Origin: Cyanobium sp. PCC 7001
Lineage (GTDB): Bacteria; Cyanobacteriota; Cyanobacteriia; PCC-6307; Cyanobiaceae
Direction of reading: 5' to 3'
NCBI RefSeq assembly: GCF_000155635.1
Contig: NZ_DS990556.1
Location: 248,001 to 312,000 of the forward strand
Length of the DNA stretch: 64,000 nt
The position numbers were made by a program, and so were the translations under genes. The number at the start of each line of letters is the position of its first letter. Positions within the stretch are counted from its first letter, which is position 1. The notes beneath the pieces are model-generated. The model was not told the DNA's origin and ran no database searches. It saw nothing but the letters and a program-made list of their open reading frames with translations. Shown here one piece after another: positions 3,296 through 11,816 of the stretch.

Positions 3296-4144
3296 GTGCT
3301 GCTGCACAGCCTCTGGGGGTTTCCTGGCGACCTGCAGCAGGCGATCCAGCGGGCGTCCACCGCTGGCTTCCACGGGCTTGAGGCCAACCTCCGGCATCCC
3401 GCCCTGGCGGGCCTGGAGCCCCCGGCCGTGGCCGCAGCCCTGGCCGCTTCGGCCATGCCCCTGGTGCTCGAGCTGGTCACCGGTGGCGACTACGTGCCCC
3501 GGCTTGCGCTGGGGCCGGAGGATCACCTCCACGAGCTGGAGCGGCTGCTGGCTGCATGCCCGGCCTTCGCCCCGCTCAAGGTGACCGTGATCACGGGCTG
3601 CGATGCCTGGAGCTGGCCGCAGCAGGAGTGGTTCTGGAGCAGGGCCGTCCCCCTGGCCGAGGCCTCCGGGCTGGCGGTGAGCTTCGAAACCCACCGTTCC
3701 CGCAGCCTCCACAACCCCTGGACCATCCAGCGCTTCCTGGATGCCTTCCCCGGCCTGCGGCTCACGGCGGACCTGAGCCACTGGTGCGTGGTGGCCGAGC
3801 GGCTGATGACGCCCGATCTGGCGCCCGTGGCGGCCATGGCCGGCCGGGTGGACCACATCCATGCCCGGGTGGGCCATCCCCAGGGCCCCTCGGTGGGCCA
3901 TCCCTTCGCGCCGGAGTGGGCCGAAGCCCTGGAGGCCCATCGCCGCTGCTGGCGGCTGTTCCGTTCCAGCCGCACCAACGGCGTCCTGCCTTTCACGATC
4001 ACGCCCGAATTCGGGCCGGATGGCTACCTGCCCGAACGCCCCTTCAGCCGCGAGCCGGTGGCCGATCTGCTGGAGATCAACACGGCCATGGCCCGTTGGA
4101 TCCAGGCGGGTGCTCTCGATGCAGAGGATGGGGATCAGCCGTGA
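3296..4144 (+). CDS. TIM-barrel sugar phosphate isomerase/epimerase family protein
   Basis: A 282-residue protein of the xylose-isomerase-like TIM-barrel family. Typical strand ends are LLHSLWGFPGDLQ at the start, GFHGLEANLR, SFETHRSRSLHNP, RLTADLSHWC and VDHIHARVGHPQG, which carry the His/Glu/Asp metal ligands of this family. The start is the GTG at 3296, the first codon in frame that allows the first beta strand; upstream codons offer no better choice. Substrate is unknown. Its last 68 bases overlap the 3' end of the Rieske oxygenase gene on the other strand. It sits between the two amine-related gene groups but is transcribed the other way, so a shared pathway is only possible. Confidence 0.8.
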   Translation: MLLHSLWGFPGDLQQAIQRASTAGFHGLEANLRHPALAGLEPPAVAAALAASAMPLVLELVTGGDYVPRLALGPEDHLHELERLLAACPAFAPLKVTVITGCDAWSWPQQEWFWSRAVPLAEASGLAVSFETHRSRSLHNPWTIQRFLDAFPGLRLTADLSHWCVVAERLMTPDLAPVAAMAGRVDHIHARVGHPQGPSVGHPFAPEWAEALEAHRRCWRLFRSSRTNGVLPFTITPEFGPDGYLPERPFSREPVADLLEINTAMARWIQAGALDAEDGDQP

Positions 4145-5165
4145 GGCCCATCACCGCGGCGTAGAGGCGCTGGTGCTGCAGCAGGCGCTGCTCCAACCGG
4201 TGCGGCGGGCCCGGCACCAGGCCGCTGCGGTAGCCCCGCTGGGCCGACTCCACCAGCCGGCGATCCTCCTCCAGGAACAGGAGCATGCTCTCCAGCCACT
4301 CGGCGGCCAGCGGTGCCTGCGCGGCCGTGCCCAGCAGCCACAGCTGCATGGCGCAGCGCTCGAGGGTGAGGGGCGGGAAGCTGATTACTGCCAGCCGGCC
4401 ATCGGGCCACACCAGCAGATGGGTCCAGGGGGCGAGCCCGAAGGTGAGGAAGTCGCCGCCCTCCATCGGGGTGGCCAGCAGGGAGCCGTGGCGGCTGAGG
4501 GCATGGCGGTAGTGCCGCACCGGTCCCTGCTCGCGGTGGAGCGTGCGGGGATGGGCGATGGCCACGTGGTAGTCGTCGAGGGTGTTGTCGTGGGCGATCT
4601 TCCAGTTGCAGGCCAGTTCGCGGCTGGTCTGGCCCAGCAGCTGCAGAGGCCGGGCCAGGGCTTCCCCCGCCTCCTGGAGCACCAGATCCAGCTGCTGCTC
4701 CAGGGGCAGGGGATCGGCGCCGATCGCCACCCAGATCAGCGGCCCGCTCGCGTGGCAGGCCAGCGGTTGGAGCGGCCAGTCGGCGCGGCAGAAGGGCTCG
4801 AGGAACTCCCCTTCCCGGGCCGCCGCCCGCAGCTGGCCGTCGAGGCCGTAGGTCCAGCCGTGATACGGGCACACCAGGCGCCGGCTGGGCTGGGCCGACC
4901 CGGCGGGATCCTGCAGGGCCACGCCGCGGTGCGGGCAGCGGTTGAGGAAGGCCCTCACCCCTTCACCGGGCGCATGGGTGAGCAGCACCGGCAGGTCCAG
5001 CAGCTCCAGCGCCAGGCTGTGGCCCTCCGGCAGGGCCGCCAGCGGCGCCACCGGATGCCAGAACCGTGGGGCGTAGCGCTCCCGCTCCTGCCGGGCGGTG
5101 GCAGCGCACGTGTAGAGGTGGGCCGGCAGGAAGCTGGCCGCGGCGGCCGCCGGGATGGGGCTCAT
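4077..5165 (-). CDS. Rieske non-heme iron oxygenase, alpha subunit type
   Basis: A 362-residue oxygenase. The Rieske 2Fe-2S ligands are C77-x-H79 in NRCPHRG and C99-x2-H102 in LVCPYHGW. The catalytic iron triad is H200 and H205 in DDYHVAIAH with D301 in LEEDRRLVESAQRG. The enzyme should hydroxylate or N/O-dealkylate a small substrate using O2 and ferredoxin electrons; no dedicated reductase is present here. The ATG at 5163-5165 overlaps the stop of the ABC ATPase gene (ATGA), making it the last gene of the guanidine operon. I infer, without proof, that it could act on an alkylated guanidine or amine delivered by the importer. Its 3' end overlaps the convergent TIM-barrel gene by 68 bases. Confidence 0.88.
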   Translation of the reverse strand: MSPIPAAAAASFLPAHLYTCAATARQERERYAPRFWHPVAPLAALPEGHSLALELLDLPVLLTHAPGEGVRAFLNRCPHRGVALQDPAGSAQPSRRLVCPYHGWTYGLDGQLRAAAREGEFLEPFCRADWPLQPLACHASGPLIWVAIGADPLPLEQQLDLVLQEAGEALARPLQLLGQTSRELACNWKIAHDNTLDDYHVAIAHPRTLHREQGPVRHYRHALSRHGSLLATPMEGGDFLTFGLAPWTHLLVWPDGRLAVISFPPLTLERCAMQLWLLGTAAQAPLAAEWLESMLLFLEEDRRLVESAQRGYRSGLVPGPPHRLEQRLLQHQRLYAAVMGLTADPHPLHREHPPGSNGPWPC

Positions 5166-5932
5166 GCCGCCAGGGACGGCTCGAGGCTGCGCAGGCACTG
5201 GGCCAGCTCCTCGCGCAGGGTCAGGAATTCGGGAGACACCCGCAGGTGGCCCATGTTGGAGTGGTCCAGATCCACCTGAACGCTGCGCACGATCCGCCCC
5301 GGACGCGGCGCCATGATGTGCACCCTCTGGGCCAGCAGCAGCGCCTCCTCCAGATCGTGGGTGATCAGCAGGGCCGAGAGGCCGGTGCGTTGCCAGAGCT
5401 TGTGCAGGAATTCCTGCATCGATTCACGGATCTGGAGGTCGAGGGCGCCGAAGGGTTCATCCAGCAGCAGCACCTTGGGCTGGGCCGCCAGGGCCCGGGC
5501 GATGGCCACCCGCTGCTGCATGCCGCCCGAGAGCTCCCGCGGCAGGCGCCGGGCCGCGTCGCCCAGGCCCACCACATCGAGGAAATAGCTGGTGCGCTCG
5601 CGGATCTCCCGCTTGGCCAGCCCCTGCAGCTCCATGCCGAAGGCCACGTTCTGGGCGGCGGTGAGCCACGGGTAGAGGCTGTACTTCTGGAACACCATGC
5701 CCCGATCGGAGCCCGGGCCCTTCACGCTATGGCCGTCCACGCTGATGGAGCCCAGCGTGGGCCGCTCCAGGCCGGCCACCAGCCGCATCACCGTGGATTT
5801 CCCCGAGCCTGAGCTGCCCACCAGGGCCACGAATTCACCGGTGTTCACCTCGAAGCTGATGCCCTCGAGCACGCACTTGGCGTTGCGGCCCACCCCGAAG
5901 ACCTTGGTGACGTTGTCGACGCTGAGATGCAT
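5162..5932 (-). CDS. ABC importer ATP-binding protein, nitrate/taurine (NrtD/SsuB) type
   Basis: A 256-residue ATPase with Walker A (GSSGSGKST), Q-loop (MVFQKYSLYPW), signature LSGGMQQR, Walker B (VLLLDEP) and switch histidine (LLITHDLEEAL). It energises the permease encoded 12 bases upstream. The gene order hydrolase, nickel chaperones, importer resembles the Synechocystis sll1077-sll1082 cluster, where the importer is linked to guanidine uptake; the substrate here is inferred from that context and from the upstream riboswitch. It overlaps the Rieske gene by 4 bases. Confidence 0.92.
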   Translation of the reverse strand: MHLSVDNVTKVFGVGRNAKCVLEGISFEVNTGEFVALVGSSGSGKSTVMRLVAGLERPTLGSISVDGHSVKGPGSDRGMVFQKYSLYPWLTAAQNVAFGMELQGLAKREIRERTSYFLDVVGLGDAARRLPRELSGGMQQRVAIARALAAQPKVLLLDEPFGALDLQIRESMQEFLHKLWQRTGLSALLITHDLEEALLLAQRVHIMAPRPGRIVRSVQVDLDHSNMGHLRVSPEFLTLREELAQCLRSLEPSLAA

Positions 5933-5944
5933 GGGAGTGAGGAG

Positions 5945-6772
5945 TCAGTTGGCCCAGCGGCAGGTGCGCCGCATCAGCAGGCGGAAGCCCAGATCGATCA
6001 GCAGGCCGATCAGCCCGATCACGATCAGGCCGAGGAAGATCTCATCGGTGCGCAGGAAGCGCTGGGCCAGGCTGATGCGCTTGCCGAGGCCTTCATTGGC
6101 CGCCACCAGTTCGGCCACGATCACCAGATTCCAGGCGGAGGCCATGTTGATCCGGTAGGTGTCGATCACCTGGGGGGTGATGCACGGGGTGATGACCCGC
6201 AGCAGCACCTGGGAGGTGCGGCCCCCCAGGGTGAGGGCCGTCTCTACCAGTTCGTTCGGCACGAACTTCACGGCATCCATGATCATCAGGGTGTTGAAGA
6301 ACAGGGTGCCGATGAAGATCAGCAGGATCTTCGGCAGTTCGCCCAGGCCGAAGTAGATGATCAGCAGCGGAATGAAGGCCGGCGCCGGCATGTAGCGGAT
6401 CAGGGCCATCAATGGCTCCAGCAGCCGGCAGATCACCGTGCTGGTGCCCATGGCGATGCCCAGAGGCAGGGCCACGGCGGCCGAGAGGGCAAAGCCCGCG
6501 AACACCCGGCCCACGCTGGCCACCAGGTCAGCCCAGAGCACCCCCTGGGCCGCCTGGCTCTGGCCGGCGGCGATCACCCCGGAGGGGCTGGGCAGGAAGA
6601 GCGGATCCACCAGGCCGGCGCTGGTGACCGCTGTCCAGAACACCACCACGGCGAGAACTCCCGCCAGCCCCAGCACCCAGGGGTGCTGGCCCAGGCGCTT
6701 CAGCCGCTCCGTTGCCGGGGCGGCGGCGGGCTGGGGCTCGATCGGTGGAGCCTTGCTGGCGGGAGAGGTCAT
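5945..6772 (-). CDS. ABC importer permease, nitrate/taurine (NrtB/SsuC) type
   Basis: A 275-residue inner-membrane protein with about six hydrophobic segments after a cytoplasmic N-terminus. The family EAA-like coupling segment is visible around ETALTLGGRTSQVLLRVITP. It sits 20 bases after the binding-protein gene and 12 bases before the ATPase gene, so the three form one importer. Guanidine or a guanidine derivative is the inferred cargo because the operon is headed by a guanidine-I riboswitch. Confidence 0.92.
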   Translation of the reverse strand: MTSPASKAPPIEPQPAAAPATERLKRLGQHPWVLGLAGVLAVVVFWTAVTSAGLVDPLFLPSPSGVIAAGQSQAAQGVLWADLVASVGRVFAGFALSAAVALPLGIAMGTSTVICRLLEPLMALIRYMPAPAFIPLLIIYFGLGELPKILLIFIGTLFFNTLMIMDAVKFVPNELVETALTLGGRTSQVLLRVITPCITPQVIDTYRINMASAWNLVIVAELVAANEGLGKRISLAQRFLRTDEIFLGLIVIGLIGLLIDLGFRLLMRRTCRWAN

Positions 6773-6792
6773 GGTGGTGGGTGTCCCTCAGC

Positions 6793-7812
6793 TCACTTCG
6801 CCGCTTTGACGAAGGTGTCCACGAACAGCCCGTCCAGCTTTGGTGGCGTCTTGGCGAGACCCACGTTCTGCAGGAAGGCGCTGATCTCGCCGGCCGCGTA
6901 GGGCAGTGAGGACATCGTGGTGCCCGGCTCCAGCGCCTTGATGTTGTCCTCGAGGCTGAAGATCGTGGTGCCGGCGTTGTACTCCTTGTACTCCTCCTCG
7001 CTCACTCCGGCCCGCTGGCTCATGATCGCCAGCGAGGGGCCTGGATTCGCCTCGATCTCGCCCAGGGTGGCGAACCAGGCATCCACGAGTTTCTGCACCT
7101 TCTCGGGGTTCTCGGCCACGAAGTCGGTGCGGCACACCAGGTGGTCGCTGATGGCGCCCGGGAATTCCTTCGAGGAGAAGAGGGTGGCGCTGCCGGGGCG
7201 CTTGAGGGCCTGGGTGGTGAAGGGGGCGAACACACCCACCGCATCCACCTGACCGGCCACGAAAGCCGCCGCTGCGGCGCCGGTTTCCAGGGGCACGAAG
7301 GTGATGTCATCGGCGGTGAGGCCGGCCTGCCTCAGGCCCAGCAGCAGCAGGTAGTGATCCACCGTGCCCTCCTCGGCGGCCACCTTCTTGCCCTTCAGAT
7401 CGGCAATGCTGGTGATGCCTTCAGCGGCGATGATCTGGTCATTGCCGGTGGAGTTGTCGTTGGTGAGCACCACCTGCAGATCGGCGCCACCGGCGATCGA
7501 GCTGATGGTGTCGTTGAGGGTCTGGCTGTTGCAGTCCAGCTGGCCGGCGTTGAGGGCGTTGATCGAATCGAGATAGCCGTCGAACCACTGCAGGGTCACC
7601 GGGATGCCGAACAGGCCCTTCTCCTCGGTGACCTTCCAGGGGATCCAGCCCGGCCAGGCGCTGTAGCCGACGCGCACGGGCGTGTCGGAGCCTCCGCCAC
7701 CCTGCTGGCCGCAGGCGGAGAGGATGCCGGCGCCCAGGCCCAGCAGCAGCAGGCTGGCCAGCAGGCGCTGGCGTTGACGGGGCTTTCGGGGAGTGGTTCG
7801 GGGTGTGGTCAT
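6793..7812 (-). CDS. ABC importer substrate-binding lipoprotein (likely guanidine)
   Basis: A 339-residue periplasmic binding protein of the NMT1/SsuA-like family. The N-terminus has a basic stretch, a leucine-rich core and the lipobox LSAC with the lipidated Cys at residue 34, followed by a Gly-rich linker. The mature part begins TPVRVGYSAWPGWIPW, typical of nitrate/taurine-like binding proteins. The start is the ATG at 7810-7812; the longer open frame has no signal peptide. The preceding 112-base gap (7813-7924) is GC-rich, with a GCCGG/CCGGC hairpin that might tune expression between the enzyme and transporter parts of the operon. Guanidine as ligand is inferred from context. Confidence 0.92.
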   Translation of the reverse strand: MTTPRTTPRKPRQRQRLLASLLLLGLGAGILSACGQQGGGGSDTPVRVGYSAWPGWIPWKVTEEKGLFGIPVTLQWFDGYLDSINALNAGQLDCNSQTLNDTISSIAGGADLQVVLTNDNSTGNDQIIAAEGITSIADLKGKKVAAEEGTVDHYLLLLGLRQAGLTADDITFVPLETGAAAAAFVAGQVDAVGVFAPFTTQALKRPGSATLFSSKEFPGAISDHLVCRTDFVAENPEKVQKLVDAWFATLGEIEANPGPSLAIMSQRAGVSEEEYKEYNAGTTIFSLEDNIKALEPGTTMSSLPYAAGEISAFLQNVGLAKTPPKLDGLFVDTFVKAAK

Positions 7813-7924
7813 GGAAGGGTTCGGTGGGTGAAGAGGTGGATGGCGATCCGGCCACGCCGGGGGGGCCGGCGCAGCCGCAGGGGGCTCAGGGGGGGATGGA
7901 GCGCCGGATGGGGTGGTCCATGGT

Positions 7925-9310
7925 TCAGAACAGCTCCAGGTAGCGCTCGGTCTCCCAGCTGGAGATGGCGCTGTGGTAGCTGGCCCACTCCTCCCGCTTG
8001 AAGCTGATGAAGGCGTCGGCCATGGCCTCGCCGAACACCTCCCGGCCGAGGGGATCGGCCGCGAAGGCCTCGATCGCTTCGCCGAGGGTGCGCGGCAGGG
8101 TGGTGAGCCCGCGCCGGGCCCGCTCCTCGGGGCTGAGCCGGTAGGCATTCACCAGGTTGGGCTCGCCGGGGTCGAGGCCCTCGCGGATCCCCTCGAGACC
8201 GGCGGCGAGCAACAGCGCCGCGGCCAGGTAGGGGTTGCAGGCACTGTCCGTGGCGCGGCACTCCACCCGGCTGCCGGCACCGGGGATGCGCAGCATGTTG
8301 GTGCGGTTGTTGTTGCCGTAGCAGATGAACACCGGCGCCCAGGTGAAGCCGCTCATGCTTCCCTGCACCACCAGCCGCTTGTAGCTGTTCACAGTGGGGG
8401 CGATCACGGCGCAGATCGCCGGGGCATGGCGCAGGATGCCGGCGATGAACTGGCGCCCCAGCGGGCTCACCCAGCTGCCGGTGCCATCCGGCGGGGTGAA
8501 CAGATTGGTGCCGCTCTCCAGATCGGCCAGCGACATGTTGAAGTGGGCGCCGCTCCCGGTGCGATCGGCGAATGGCTTGGGCATGAAGCTGGCGATCAGC
8601 CCGTGCTTGCGGGTGATCTCCCGGGCCATCAGCCGGAAGAACGTGACCCGGTCCGCCGTGATCAGGGCATCGGCGTAGCCGAAGTCAGTTTCGAACTGGC
8701 CGTTGCCGTCCTCGTGGTCGAAGGAGTACACGCCCCAGCCCAGGGCGTTCATGGCCTGCACCAGCTCATCGAGCCAGTCGAGGTTGTCCAGCAGCCCGCG
8801 CAGGTCGTAGCAGGGCTTGCCCAGGGTGTCGGCGCTGCTGGCCGGACCGAGGGAACCGTCGGCGCCGCGCCGCAGCACGAAGAACTCGGTTTCCACGCCG
8901 AGGTTGAAGCGCAGACCCATCCGGGCCGCCTGCTCCCGCACGCGGCAGAGGATGGCGCGGCTACAGGCCTCGAAGGGCTGGCCATGGAGGTGCAGGGTGC
9001 TGGCCATCCACACCGTGTCGGGCCGCCAGGGCAGCACGGTGGCGGAGCTCAGGTCCGGCACGGCGGCCACCTCGTCGTCGCTCACGTCCTGGGGCACGCC
9101 GTCGAGGGCGGCGCCGGTGAACAGCTCCGATCCCGCCAGCATCGCCGGCAGGTGGTGCAGGGGCACGGCCTTGGCCTTGCACACCCCATGCAGGTCCACG
9201 AAGCTGGCCAGGGCGTAATGCACGCCCTGCTCTTCCAGCCCGGTGCGGGCGTCCTCAGCAGTCACTCCGCTGGCGCTCACACCGCCGGCGGTCAAGCCGC
9301 TGGCGCTCAT
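7925..9310 (-). CDS. GlnT-type (type III) glutamine synthetase homologue
   Basis: A 461-residue enzyme of the glutamine synthetase superfamily. Visible landmarks are [15 protein letters not shown] at the start, the metal-binding [21 protein letters not shown], the ATP-site [10 protein letters not shown] and [10 protein letters not shown], then [10 protein letters not shown] and the Arg-rich [15 protein letters not shown]. The start ATG at 9308-9310 overlaps the stop of the HypB-like gene (ATGA). Relatives annotated GlnT or gamma-glutamylmethylamide synthetase ligate ammonia or alkylamines to glutamate. In this operon it could capture ammonia released by guanidine hydrolysis, or a small amine; sequence cannot decide. 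The first residues after the start repeat the words ASGLTAGG / ASGVTAE. Confidence 0.9.
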
Positions 9311-10020
9311 GGGCTCACCAGGGCAGGAGTGGCTGCCACGGCCTGATGCTGCAGGGCCCGTTGCTGACTCACCCAAGCGTGCCAGGCATCCAGACCCTCG
9401 CCGCTGCTGGCGGACACCCGGATCACGGCACAACGGGGATTCACCTGGCGGATGTGGGCTTCGATGCGCTCCACATCCACCGCCAGGTGGGGCAGCAGAT
9501 CCGTCTTGGTGATCAGCACGCAGTCGGCTTCACGGAACATCACCGGGTACTTGAGCGGCTTGTCGTCGCCTTCGGTGACACTCAGCAGGGCCACCTTGCG
9601 GTGTTCGCCCACCTCGAATTCGGCGGGGCACACCAGGTTGCCCACGTTCTCCACCCAGAGAATGTCGAGGCTGGAGGGATCCAGCCGCTGACGCAGCAGC
9701 TTCAGGCCCCCCGCCACCATGGCCGCATCGAGATGACAGGCGCGGCCGGTGGTGATCGGCACCACGGGCACGCCCACGGCTTCCAGCCGCTGGGCATCGA
9801 GGTGGGTGGTCATGTCCCCTTCCAGCACCGCCATGGCATGGCGGCCGGCGAGCTGGGCGAGGGACCGCTCGAGCAGGGAGGTCTTGCCCGCTCCCGGGCT
9901 GCTCATCACGTTCAGACAGAGCAGGTTCCAGCCATCGAAGTGCTCGCGGTTGTGCTCGGCCTGGTGCTGGTTGGCCGCCAGCAGATTGAGACCGAGGGTG
10001 TCTTCCAGAGGCATGTGCAT
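9307..10020 (-). CDS. ghaB: HypB-like GTPase, nickel insertion accessory for guanidine hydrolase
   Basis: A 237-residue P-loop GTPase. The P-loop [10 protein letters not shown] lies at residues 41-50, followed by [12 protein letters not shown], the metal-site region [10 protein letters not shown] and the [12 protein letters not shown] segment typical of HypB, then the guanine-specificity TKTD. It lacks the His-rich N-terminus of some HypB proteins. It delivers Ni to a client enzyme together with HypA. No [NiFe] hydrogenase gene is seen; the client is evidently the Ni-dependent guanidine hydrolase two genes upstream, as for the paired chaperones described for Synechocystis GdmH. I start at the first of two in-frame ATGs (10018-10020), 5 bases after the HypA-like stop. 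Confidence 0.9.
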
Positions 10021-10025
10021 GGCGA

Positions 10026-10424
10026 TCAGGCGGTGGTGAGCAGGGATGGCGAAGCGCTGGCCACAGGCGGCTGGAAGGTGTAATCCACCGAGCGGATCTT
10101 GAGTTCGCGGCCGCTCACGATCTCCTCCATCGGGTGCTGGCAGCAGGGGGACCGGTAGCCCTCCTCTGGTGAGGGGGTGTAGGTGCCGTTGCAGCGAACG
10201 CAGCGGCCCTGGAGGGGCACGGTTTCGATCGCCAGCGCGGTGCCCTCGAGCCAGCTGCCGGTCACGGCGGCGTTCCAGGTGAACACCAGCTGATCCGGTT
10301 CCACGCAGGTGAAGTCCCCCACCAGCAGATGCACCGTGGACACCCGGGGTTCGGCGGGAGCGTGCTGCTGCTTCCACTCCTGCATGGCCAGCAGCAGGCA
10401 CTTGGTCATGTCGACTTCATGCAT
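10026..10424 (-). CDS. ghaA: HypA-like nickel metallochaperone for guanidine hydrolase
   Basis: A 132-residue HypA family protein. It begins MHEVDMTK, with His2 as the conserved Ni ligand, and has a zinc-finger region with CVRC and SPCCQHP around residues 75-97. The C-terminal tail beyond the core is Ser/Ala-rich. It begins 4 bases after the gdmH stop and ends 5 bases before the HypB-like start, so the chaperone pair is co-expressed with the enzyme. Role: hands Ni2+ to the guanidine hydrolase apoenzyme in the cytoplasm. A hydrogenase role is unlikely given the context. Confidence 0.9.
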
Positions 10425-10428
10425 CCGC

Positions 10429-11619
10429 TCACCTCCAGGCCTGATCGACGTGCATGTTGCAGATGTCGCTGATCCAGCCCGGCTTCGCCTTCCTCGGCAG
10501 CTGGCCGCTCACCACCAGGTGGGCCATCGTGTCGCAGATCACCCGGGTGGCCATCAGGGAGGTCATGTCACTGATGTCGTAGGGAGGGGACACCTCCACC
10601 ACCTCGAGGCCGCAGACCGGCACATTGCGCACGATCAGTTCCAGCAGCTTGAGGGCCTCCCGCGGCAGCAGGCCGCCCGGCTCGGGCCAGCCGGTGCCGG
10701 GCACGAAGCCGGCGTCGATGCAGTCGATGTCGAAGGAGATGTACACGCAGTCGGTGCCGTCGGTGGCGCGTTCGATCGCGAACTTCGCCGCCGCCTCCAG
10801 GCCCATCTCGCAGATGTCGGTGACGGTGAGCACGTTGGTGCCCCGCTCCCGGCACACCTTCACCCCCTCGCGCGGCACCTGCCAGCCGCCGATGCCGAGC
10901 TGCACCAGGTTCTGCGCTGGTGCATTGGCCATGTTCGTGGCATGGAACCACGGGCAGGTGTGCATCCGCTCGTCCAGATCGATCTCCTGGGTGTCCACAT
11001 GGCGATCGAAGTGGATGATCCCCACCTTCTTGTCACCCAGATGGCGGCAGACGCCGCGCACGGTGGGGAAGCCGATCGAGTGATCGCCGCCCAGGATGAT
11101 CGGGAAGGCTCCGCTGCTGAACACATGAGCCACACCCTTGGAGATCTGGTCGAAGCTCTTTTCGTTGTTGGCGGGAATGGTGAAGATGTCCCCCACATCG
11201 CAGAGCTTGATCTGTTCGCGCAGATCCACCCCCATCTCGTAGTTGTAGGGGGTGTAGAGCGCCGAGATGCGGCGGATGCCCTGGGGGCCGAAGCGGGTGC
11301 CGGGCCGGTAGGTGGTGCCGGAATCGTGGGGCACGCCGAGGACGGCCACGTCGAACTCACCGACGCGGTTCACATCCTCGATGTACGGGGCCTTCATGAA
11401 GGTGTTGATGCCCGCGTAGTGGGGCAGTTCACCGCGGGAGAAGGTGGAGATGCGCCGATCGATGATGCTTTCGGCGGCCTCCAGGCCGAAGCGATGGGCC
11501 TGGTCCACCTCCTGCTGCCAGCCGGTGAGGGGAAGCTGGCGTTCCTTCTCGAGGGCGCGGAAGCCTTCGCCGGGATGCTGCCGGTCAAAGGCGCCTTCAG
11601 CGCCTGACGGTGAAACCAT
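10429..11619 (-). CDS. gdmH: guanidine hydrolase (Ni-dependent ureohydrolase family)
   Basis: A 396-residue member of the arginase/agmatinase superfamily with the long N-terminal extension (about 85 residues) typical of guanidine hydrolases. Metal ligands are H180 in GGDHSIGF, D205/H207/D209 in FDRHVDTQ, and D297/D299 in SFDIDCID. The C-terminal GTGWPEPGG replaces the usual GTGTPEPGG. It hydrolyses guanidine to urea and ammonia. An older annotation would be agmatinase (SpeB), but the HypA/HypB pair, the importer and especially the guanidine-I riboswitch immediately upstream make guanidine the substrate. The start ATG at 11617-11619 has no Shine-Dalgarno sequence; the preceding bases are a C-run. 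It is the first gene of a probable eight-gene operon extending to 4077. Confidence 0.93.
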   Translation of the reverse strand: MVSPSGAEGAFDRQHPGEGFRALEKERQLPLTGWQQEVDQAHRFGLEAAESIIDRRISTFSRGELPHYAGINTFMKAPYIEDVNRVGEFDVAVLGVPHDSGTTYRPGTRFGPQGIRRISALYTPYNYEMGVDLREQIKLCDVGDIFTIPANNEKSFDQISKGVAHVFSSGAFPIILGGDHSIGFPTVRGVCRHLGDKKVGIIHFDRHVDTQEIDLDERMHTCPWFHATNMANAPAQNLVQLGIGGWQVPREGVKVCRERGTNVLTVTDICEMGLEAAAKFAIERATDGTDCVYISFDIDCIDAGFVPGTGWPEPGGLLPREALKLLELIVRNVPVCGLEVVEVSPPYDISDMTSLMATRVICDTMAHLVVSGQLPRKAKPGWISDICNMHVDQAWR

Positions 11620-11645
11620 GGGGGGACGGGAGAGGGGAATGGGGC

Positions 11646-11758
11646 GGTCTCCCGGGCTTTTGTCCCTCCGTGCACCGGCGCCGCCGGTGTAGTTCTCTCG
11701 GACCAGACGCTGCTGAGGGGCCCTGAAGATCAGGAACCAACGCAGCCGGAACCCTAGA
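11646..11758 (-). promoter_or_regulatory. guanidine-I (ykkC) riboswitch
   Basis: On the minus strand the leader carries the conserved ykkC elements in order: CTAGGGTTCCG (11747-11757), GGTCCGAGAG (11695-11704), a GC hairpin ACCGGC-GGC-GCCGGT (11674-11688), then CACGGAGGGACAAAAGCCCG, continuing GGAGA (11648-11672 as a whole). These match the guanidine-I aptamer closely. It ends 28 bases before the gdmH start. The 3' aptamer strand CGGGAGA (11648-11654) is complementary to TCTCCCG at 11627-11633, giving an alternative hairpin that stops 7 bases before the ATG. No U-run follows, so control may act at translation rather than termination. Guanidine is expected to switch the operon on. Confidence 0.95.
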
Positions 11759-11774
11759 ACCTGTCCGCCAGTGG

Positions 11775-11780
11775 AGTCTG
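11775..11780 (-). promoter_or_regulatory. -10 element of NtcA-activated promoter for the guanidine operon
   Basis: CAGACT on the minus strand, matching the second A and final T of TAN3T, 22 bases after the NtcA box. This is the spacing of class II NtcA promoters, which lack a -35. Transcription would start around 11765-11768, just ahead of the riboswitch aptamer. Confidence 0.6.
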
Positions 11781-11802
11781 GGGGAAGCGCAGGGTCGGCT
11801 CA

Positions 11803-11816
11803 GTACCGATCACTAC
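11803..11816 (-). promoter_or_regulatory. NtcA-binding site, GTA-N8-TAC
   Basis: The minus strand reads GTAGTGATCGGTAC, a perfect GTA-N8-TAC palindrome, located 22 bases upstream of the -10 element and about 45 bases upstream of the guanidine-I aptamer. NtcA is the cyanobacterial CRP-family activator of nitrogen-scavenging genes. The position and distance predict activation of the gdmH operon under nitrogen limitation. Confidence 0.8.

Follow-up and report, generated by a model that had tools for sequence, protein, structure and literature searches.

How is the guanidine operon of Cyanobium sp. PCC 7001, a picocyanobacterium with a 2.83-Mb genome, controlled, by nitrogen shortage, by guanidine or by both? 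The operon lies in a stretch of 64,000 nucleotides (nt), positions 248,001 to 312,000 of contig NZ_DS990556.1 (assembly GCF_000155635.1), which is hereafter called the window. On its minus strand, from 11816 down to 4077, a GTA-N8-TAC box of the NtcA type is followed by a weak -10 hexamer, a guanidine-I (ykkC) riboswitch aptamer and eight genes, the first of which is gdmH, encoding a predicted guanidine hydrolase. A preliminary reading made from the letters of the window, the sequence-only reading, had proposed that NtcA and the riboswitch act here in series. We consider it likely that the operon is under such two-step control, with an NtcA promoter first and then a guanidine-I leader read out at translation. 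The elements preceding gdmH are:

11803..11816, minus strand: NtcA-type box GTA-N8-TAC, GTAGTGATCGGTAC, a perfect match, with an equivalent in 110/110 Cyanobiaceae loci
11775..11780, minus strand: -10-like hexamer CAGACT, 22 nt after the box
11764..11768, minus strand: GCGGA motif, 3' of the -10 and at the 5' end of the aptamer, where the 5' end of the transcript probably lies (predicted start)
11647..11768, minus strand: guanidine-I (ykkC) riboswitch aptamer, Rfam RF00442, 75.1 bits, E 1.6e-11
11620..11646, minus strand: C-rich leader of 27 nt from the aptamer to the gdmH start codon, with no terminator

The guanidine-I identity proposed for the leader was borne out by the Rfam covariance model, which matched at positions 1-107 with 75.1 bits against a gathering score of 63. 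The bounds first given for the aptamer (11646-11758) were correct to within 1 nt at the 3' end and omitted the first 10 nt. Likewise, the gene after the leader is indeed gdmH: its product shares 323 of 383 residues with the solved Synechocystis enzyme (7esr/7oi1) and is nearer to it than to agmatinases, the next clearly different group being proclavaminate amidinohydrolase with 172 bits. The perfect box is present where the sequence-only reading had placed it, and the 22-nt spacing to the hexamer also holds; as a -10, CAGACT agrees with the consensus TATAAT at only 3/6 positions (A2 and T6 are present, T1 is not). NtcA-activated promoters have a -10 of the form TA-N3-T about 20-24 nt downstream of the box. 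An NtcA gene is present in the window genome (TIGR03697, 372.9 bits, cut-off 244.95).

Could the box be a chance match? Taken by itself it is only mildly unusual: GTAGTGATCGGTAC is the sole perfect GTAN8TAC in the 64-kb window, with 0.16 expected and at least one in 16/100 shuffled windows. The whole genome contains 42 perfect sites, and two properties of the 41 others speak against a promoter here:.A...T follows at exactly 22 nt in just one of them, and no known nitrogen gene was found among ten open reading frames scanned beside such sites, so that perfect boxes were dropped as a marker of nitrogen genes within this genome. Since the case from a single genome was thus weak, we compared relatives and used conservation.

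In the Cyanobiaceae survey RF00442 was matched in 110/400 genomes, and the window locus was compared with 109 fetched loci. All 110 have a box with no more than one mismatch, 44-51 nt before the aptamer core used as reference (CTAGGGTTCCG; CCAGGGTTCCG in one locus); the distance was 47 nt in 68 loci and 48 nt in 22. Seventeen of these boxes are perfect. When the loci were aligned on the box, G1, T2, A3, A13 and C14 proved to be kept in 99-100%, while at position 12 C is found in 66% of the loci and T in 17%. The hexamer.A...T follows at a fixed spacer (A2 in 99%, T6 in 91%), and 60 representatives below 75% identity gave the same profile as the whole set. Box and -10 are thus held at a fixed spacing and are linked with the aptamer: a relaxed box, 22-23 nt and.A...T occurred together in 108/110 loci, compared with a mean of 0.54 and a maximum of 3 in 200 shuffles. 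The same search before the other operon genes gave 0/103 for hypA, 0/101 for hypB, 0/61 for the glutamine synthetase (GS)-like gene, 0/96 for the substrate-binding protein, 0/91 for the permease, 0/96 for the ATPase and 0/65 for the Rieske gene. It should be mentioned that the GCGGA motif between the -10 and the aptamer (columns +35 to +39) is also kept, at 85-98% per base, across the 110 loci.

Outside Cyanobiaceae we examined 44 of the 55 aptamer matches of the same class, from 20 families; the 11 left out, mostly near duplicates by genus, were picked before inspection, and the score of one locus examined (G659) falls short of the Rfam cut-off. A perfect box accompanies 33/44 of these aptamers (shuffled mean 1.45), a relaxed box 40/44 (shuffled 9.0), and a perfect box with.A...T at 21-24 nt 25/44 (shuffled 0.48); at least one perfect box was found in 19 of the 20 families. 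The perfect box precedes 25/30 loci that begin with gdmH (1.03 in shuffles) and 5/6 that begin with a DUF1989 or sodium-solute symporter (SSF) gene (0.15 in shuffles). An NtcA-type promoter followed by a guanidine-I leader therefore looks like the usual cyanobacterial arrangement, and the window, to which the sequence-only reading had attached special interest, in this sense shares with other cyanobacteria a pairing that is not peculiar to this genome.

A sister lineage (f31) provided a control in which lineage and gene type coincide. In its 23 loci, from 23 of the 60 genomes with matches, the aptamers precede SMR exporters (19 by signature, the other four by Pfam), and a perfect box was found in 2/23, compared with 0.77 in shuffles, which does not exceed the chance level. 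NtcA scored above the family cut-off in 26/26 cyanobacterial genomes tested and in 0/14 of the sister lineage. Because the exporter aptamers are at chance and the 14 genomes tested have no NtcA, we take the box to track guanidine use in NtcA-bearing organisms and not the aptamer as such. A chance origin of the window box could appeal to the 42 genomic sites and to the shuffled windows with a match, but it is contradicted by the one conserved position in 110/110 loci, by the boxes before aptamers of other families, by the shuffles, by the internal operon genes and by the exporter lineage; the conservation effectively refutes it.

Is NtcA the regulator? Control of urtA, a gene of the urea ATP-binding cassette (ABC) importer, by NtcA is reported in the accessible part of a published study (PMC6737895). 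In Cyanobiaceae we found a box of like kind 20-24 nt (mostly 21-23 nt) before.A...T in 25/26 urtA loci, counted without a shuffle control, and the window genome is among the 25. The geometry of box, 21-23 nt and -10 is thus shared by the urtA and gdmH promoters. The two differ in their half-sites, since at urtA the distal one varies and TAC is kept while gdmH keeps GTA and shows a drift of TAC to CAC, and in their -10, urtA having the better TA...T. As a separate observation, urtA of the window genome (1908872-1909959) is seemingly broken, being in two pieces in different frames with a TAG, while its NtcA-type promoter remains.

Several further results weigh against an NtcA promoter coupled to the riboswitch. 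In Cyanobiaceae 93/110 boxes are off by one base, mostly by TAC to CAC, and the CAC form of the half-site is also found in other CRP-family sites. The window genome encodes a second, distant CRP-family protein (79.5 bits). In the other families four of the 44 aptamers are without even a relaxed box, the perfect box with its hexamer reaches only 25 of them, and loci that begin with a transporter gene have a perfect box in just 3/8. Complementarity between leader and aptamer across Cyanobiaceae is at best marginal. Finally, a study of Synechocystis reported that ammonium acts on sll1077-sll1082 in a Slr1821-dependent way and that NtcA accounted for just part of the ammonium response (PMC10094980).

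Some of these points would fit an activator of the CRP family other than NtcA at a GTA-N8-(T/C)AC site, with a first input such as carbon or phosphate status. Of the 110 Cyanobiaceae loci, 66% have CAC as the proximal half-site and 17% have TAC, and the second CRP-family protein occurs in all three other Cyanobiaceae genomes tested as well as in that of the window. We nevertheless regard such an activator as improbable: perfect GTAN8TAC predominates in the 20 other families (33/44), the first half-site in Cyanobiaceae is GTA, not GTG, in 99%, the spacing from box to -10 equals that of urtA promoters, the box of the window is itself perfect, and all 26 cyanobacterial genomes tested have NtcA. 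We infer that NtcA is the bound protein.

With NtcA as the activator, the two steps would proceed as follows. When nitrogen is short, NtcA, the nitrogen regulator of cyanobacteria, which responds to 2-oxoglutarate, would bind the box at 11803-11816 and recruit RNA polymerase to the weak -10 located 22 nt downstream. Judged by this geometry, transcription would start at about 11767-11769, so that the mRNA would begin with the complete aptamer, which would then hold gdmH translation low until guanidine binds. Ni-GdmH would convert imported guanidine to urea and ammonium by hydrolysis. The two inputs would together act as an AND gate, as the sequence-only reading had proposed.

The sequence-only reading had guanidine release the leader. 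Release from termination is the less likely form of this: we found no intrinsic terminator between aptamer and gdmH on the minus strand of the window, and 0/108 in the Cyanobiaceae gdmH leaders scanned (G393 and G399 were excluded from the 110 loci, as no gdmH follows their aptamer). Since terminators are lacking from these leaders, the read-out in the window is probably at translation rather than termination. The gap from the aptamer to the start of the matched protein has a median of 30 nt in Cyanobiaceae versus 128 nt in other families, and 10/38 leaders of other cyanobacterial families contain a terminator-like hairpin after the aptamer. In the window, the leader could form a CGGGAGA/TCTCCCG hairpin with the 3' end of the aptamer, before the gdmH start codon. 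A general anti-aptamer hairpin before gdmH in Cyanobiaceae is not claimed: the longest complement averaged 5.02 versus 4.67 in shuffles (standard deviation 0.14, maximum 5.01), the energy of the leader-aptamer duplex was no better than in shuffles (mean -13.53 versus -13.88), and the whole-leader fold gave z = -0.33.

It may also be that the box is real and that no AND gate exists, either because transcription is high enough without NtcA for guanidine alone to decide, or because a leaky riboswitch leaves the decision to nitrogen alone. The weak -10, the degenerate box of most relatives and the lack of a clear expression platform in the pairing scan of Cyanobiaceae leaders and aptamers are in line with this. 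On the other hand, both elements are kept together in 110/110 Cyanobiaceae loci, a weak -10 is expected of an activator-dependent promoter, and in Synechocystis both responses are described, in the accessible parts of separate reports (PMC10094980; PMC8390497). We therefore think the absence of a gate unlikely, although less so than a different activator. The architecture proposed by the sequence-only reading, an NtcA-type promoter feeding a guanidine-I leader, is strongly supported by conservation, by the urtA geometry and by the negative control of the exporter lineage.

How does the operon compare with known systems? In Synechocystis PCC 6803, sll1077-sll1082 encodes GdmH, GhaA, GhaB and an ABC importer and stands, like the window operon, behind a guanidine-I riboswitch. 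The window differs in having a GS-like gene between hypB and the importer, then a terminal Rieske gene, and an aptamer-to-start leader of just 27 nt. In near relatives of the Synechocystis strain (97.65% GdmH identity) we found GTA-N8-CAC, 22 nt and TAGGGT. Excess ammonium is reported to lower expression of the Synechocystis operon (PMC10094980), and larger amounts of its proteins are reported in strains that produce guanidine (PMC8390497); these reports support the two inputs separately. In marine Synechococcus and Prochlorococcus, a speB2/guanidine cluster (Pro-eCAG_004, Syn-eCAG_001) has been described that, in the part of the account at hand, shares with the window hypA, hypB, Tau-like ABC genes, a Rieske gene and a ykkC riboswitch directly upstream (PMC10119275). 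The word NtcA has no occurrence in that paper, and neither the box nor the -10 nor the type-III synthetase appears in the available part of it (PMC10119275).

A similar pair of controls is known from the cyanobacterial gifB, which, as described in the accessible part of a review, has NtcA at the promoter and a glutamine riboswitch in the 5' untranslated region (PMC6316151), that is, like the window, an NtcA site and a riboswitch for a nitrogen compound before one gene. At gifB, however, NtcA represses and glutamine switches the RNA on, both signalling plenty (PMC6316151), whereas in the window NtcA would be expected to activate when nitrogen is scarce, and guanidine reports the presence of the substrate. 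Thus the operon with its riboswitch is already published and gifB is a precedent for NtcA combined with a riboswitch. For the NtcA half, no earlier report turned up in an incomplete literature search that paired NtcA with guanidine or ykkC, so that its novelty is provisional.

Do the two layers persist together? In total, gdmH was found in 126/400 Cyanobiaceae genomes. Two loci of the RCC307 type (L244, L245) keep a perfect box, GTATCGCCTGTTAC, and the 3' part of their leader, GGAACAAAAGCCTGGGAGACC, is aptamer-like, which suggests a decayed or much changed guanidine leader. The stronger proposal of a diverged yet recognisable riboswitch in these leaders was rejected, as a search against Rfam gave no match with E of 1 or less. 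In two further gdmH loci without a riboswitch the box was absent as well. Of the 16 named Prochlorococcus loci (L357-L372), none gave an Rfam match or, up to 300 nt from gdmH, a relaxed box with -10. All 16, which are close relatives, have a perfect box before the importer genes of the cluster, with.A...T following at 22-23 nt, a count made without a shuffle control. The box kept in the RCC307-type loci and moved in Prochlorococcus points to nitrogen control as the more persistent layer, which may outlast the riboswitch and can apparently relocate. As a side observation, two Prochlorococcus-like genomes, G393 (L095) and G399 (L115), have the aptamer and a perfect NtcA box on a contig other than that of gdmH; the aptamer precedes a different ABC transporter in G393 and a 200-residue reading frame of no identified family in G399.

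Taken together, these loci would fit a history to which, as a whole, we give an even chance: (i) an NtcA promoter and a guanidine-I riboswitch in series would be an old, cyanobacteria-wide gate for hunger and substrate, whose parts were exchanged separately; (ii) in Cyanobiaceae the terminator read-out of some other families would have given way to a compact read-out that is probably translational, the promoter being fixed relative to the aptamer; (iii) in RCC307-type loci the aptamer would have decayed, leaving the perfect box; and (iv) in Prochlorococcus the riboswitch before gdmH would have gone and a perfect NtcA box would now stand before the importer genes. Overall, the comparisons indicate that the two-layer design is real, well supported and widespread; it would be expected of a nitrogen-scavenging operon and is instructive as such.

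If the two-step control is true, guanidine would be a last-choice nitrogen source for cyanobacteria, and cells would produce the enzyme, the nickel chaperones and the importer solely when nitrogen is short and the substrate present, a restriction that fits the cost of nickel and ABC import. Reporters with the riboswitch alone would omit half of the native control, and a gate whose two inputs act through a single protein site and a single RNA could be of use in engineering. The natural series of loci with both layers, with the box only and with the box moved would illustrate how control layers are apparently lost and moved in small marine genomes.

The genes of the operon are:

10429..11619, minus strand: gdmH, predicted Ni-dependent guanidine hydrolase; Pfam Arginase; PDB 7esr/7oi1, 762.5 bits
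10026..10424, minus strand: hypA-like Ni chaperone gene (ghaA); PF01155, 85.7 bits
9307..10020, minus strand: hypB-like Ni chaperone gene (ghaB); TIGR00073, 282.6 bits; start checked
7925..9310, minus strand: type-III glutamate-ammonia ligase gene; TIGR03105, 568.4 bits, cut-off 469.6; start checked
6793..7812, minus strand: SsuA-family substrate-binding lipoprotein of the ABC importer; TIGR01728, 212.3 bits; start checked
5945..6772, minus strand: ABC permease gene; PF00528, 83.2 bits
5162..5932, minus strand: ABC ATPase gene; PF00005, 119.3 bits
4077..5165, minus strand: Rieske/ring-hydroxylating oxygenase alpha subunit gene; PF00355, PF00848

The eight same-strand genes and their gaps of 4, 5, -4, 112, 20, 12 and -4 nt had all been given correctly. 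A second NtcA promoter in the 112-nt gap before the importer genes was sought and found neither in the window nor in any of 97 Cyanobiaceae loci. The named near relatives of the window gdmH belong to Vulcanococcus, Cyanobium and Synechococcus. Nickel chaperone genes of the hypA/hypB type share the gdmH operon in the window and in 85/87 Cyanobiaceae loci with enough downstream sequence.

Beyond the operon, a TIM-barrel gene on the plus strand (3296-4144) is convergent with the Rieske gene and overlaps it, and is present in 50 of the same 87 loci. An NtcA-like pattern before it was discarded as a candidate, with matches in 12/50 copies, all twelve near-alike, and no match in the window. The GS-like gene (7925-9310) was found in 59 of the 87 operons. 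The solved structure that its product matches best is a glutamate-methylamine ligase (9qur, 387.9 bits), a type-III ligase scoring 342.1 bits, and the structure nearest to the Rieske protein is carnitine monooxygenase (81.6 bits). Both matches hint that the operon may include a branch for methylguanidine or methylamine.

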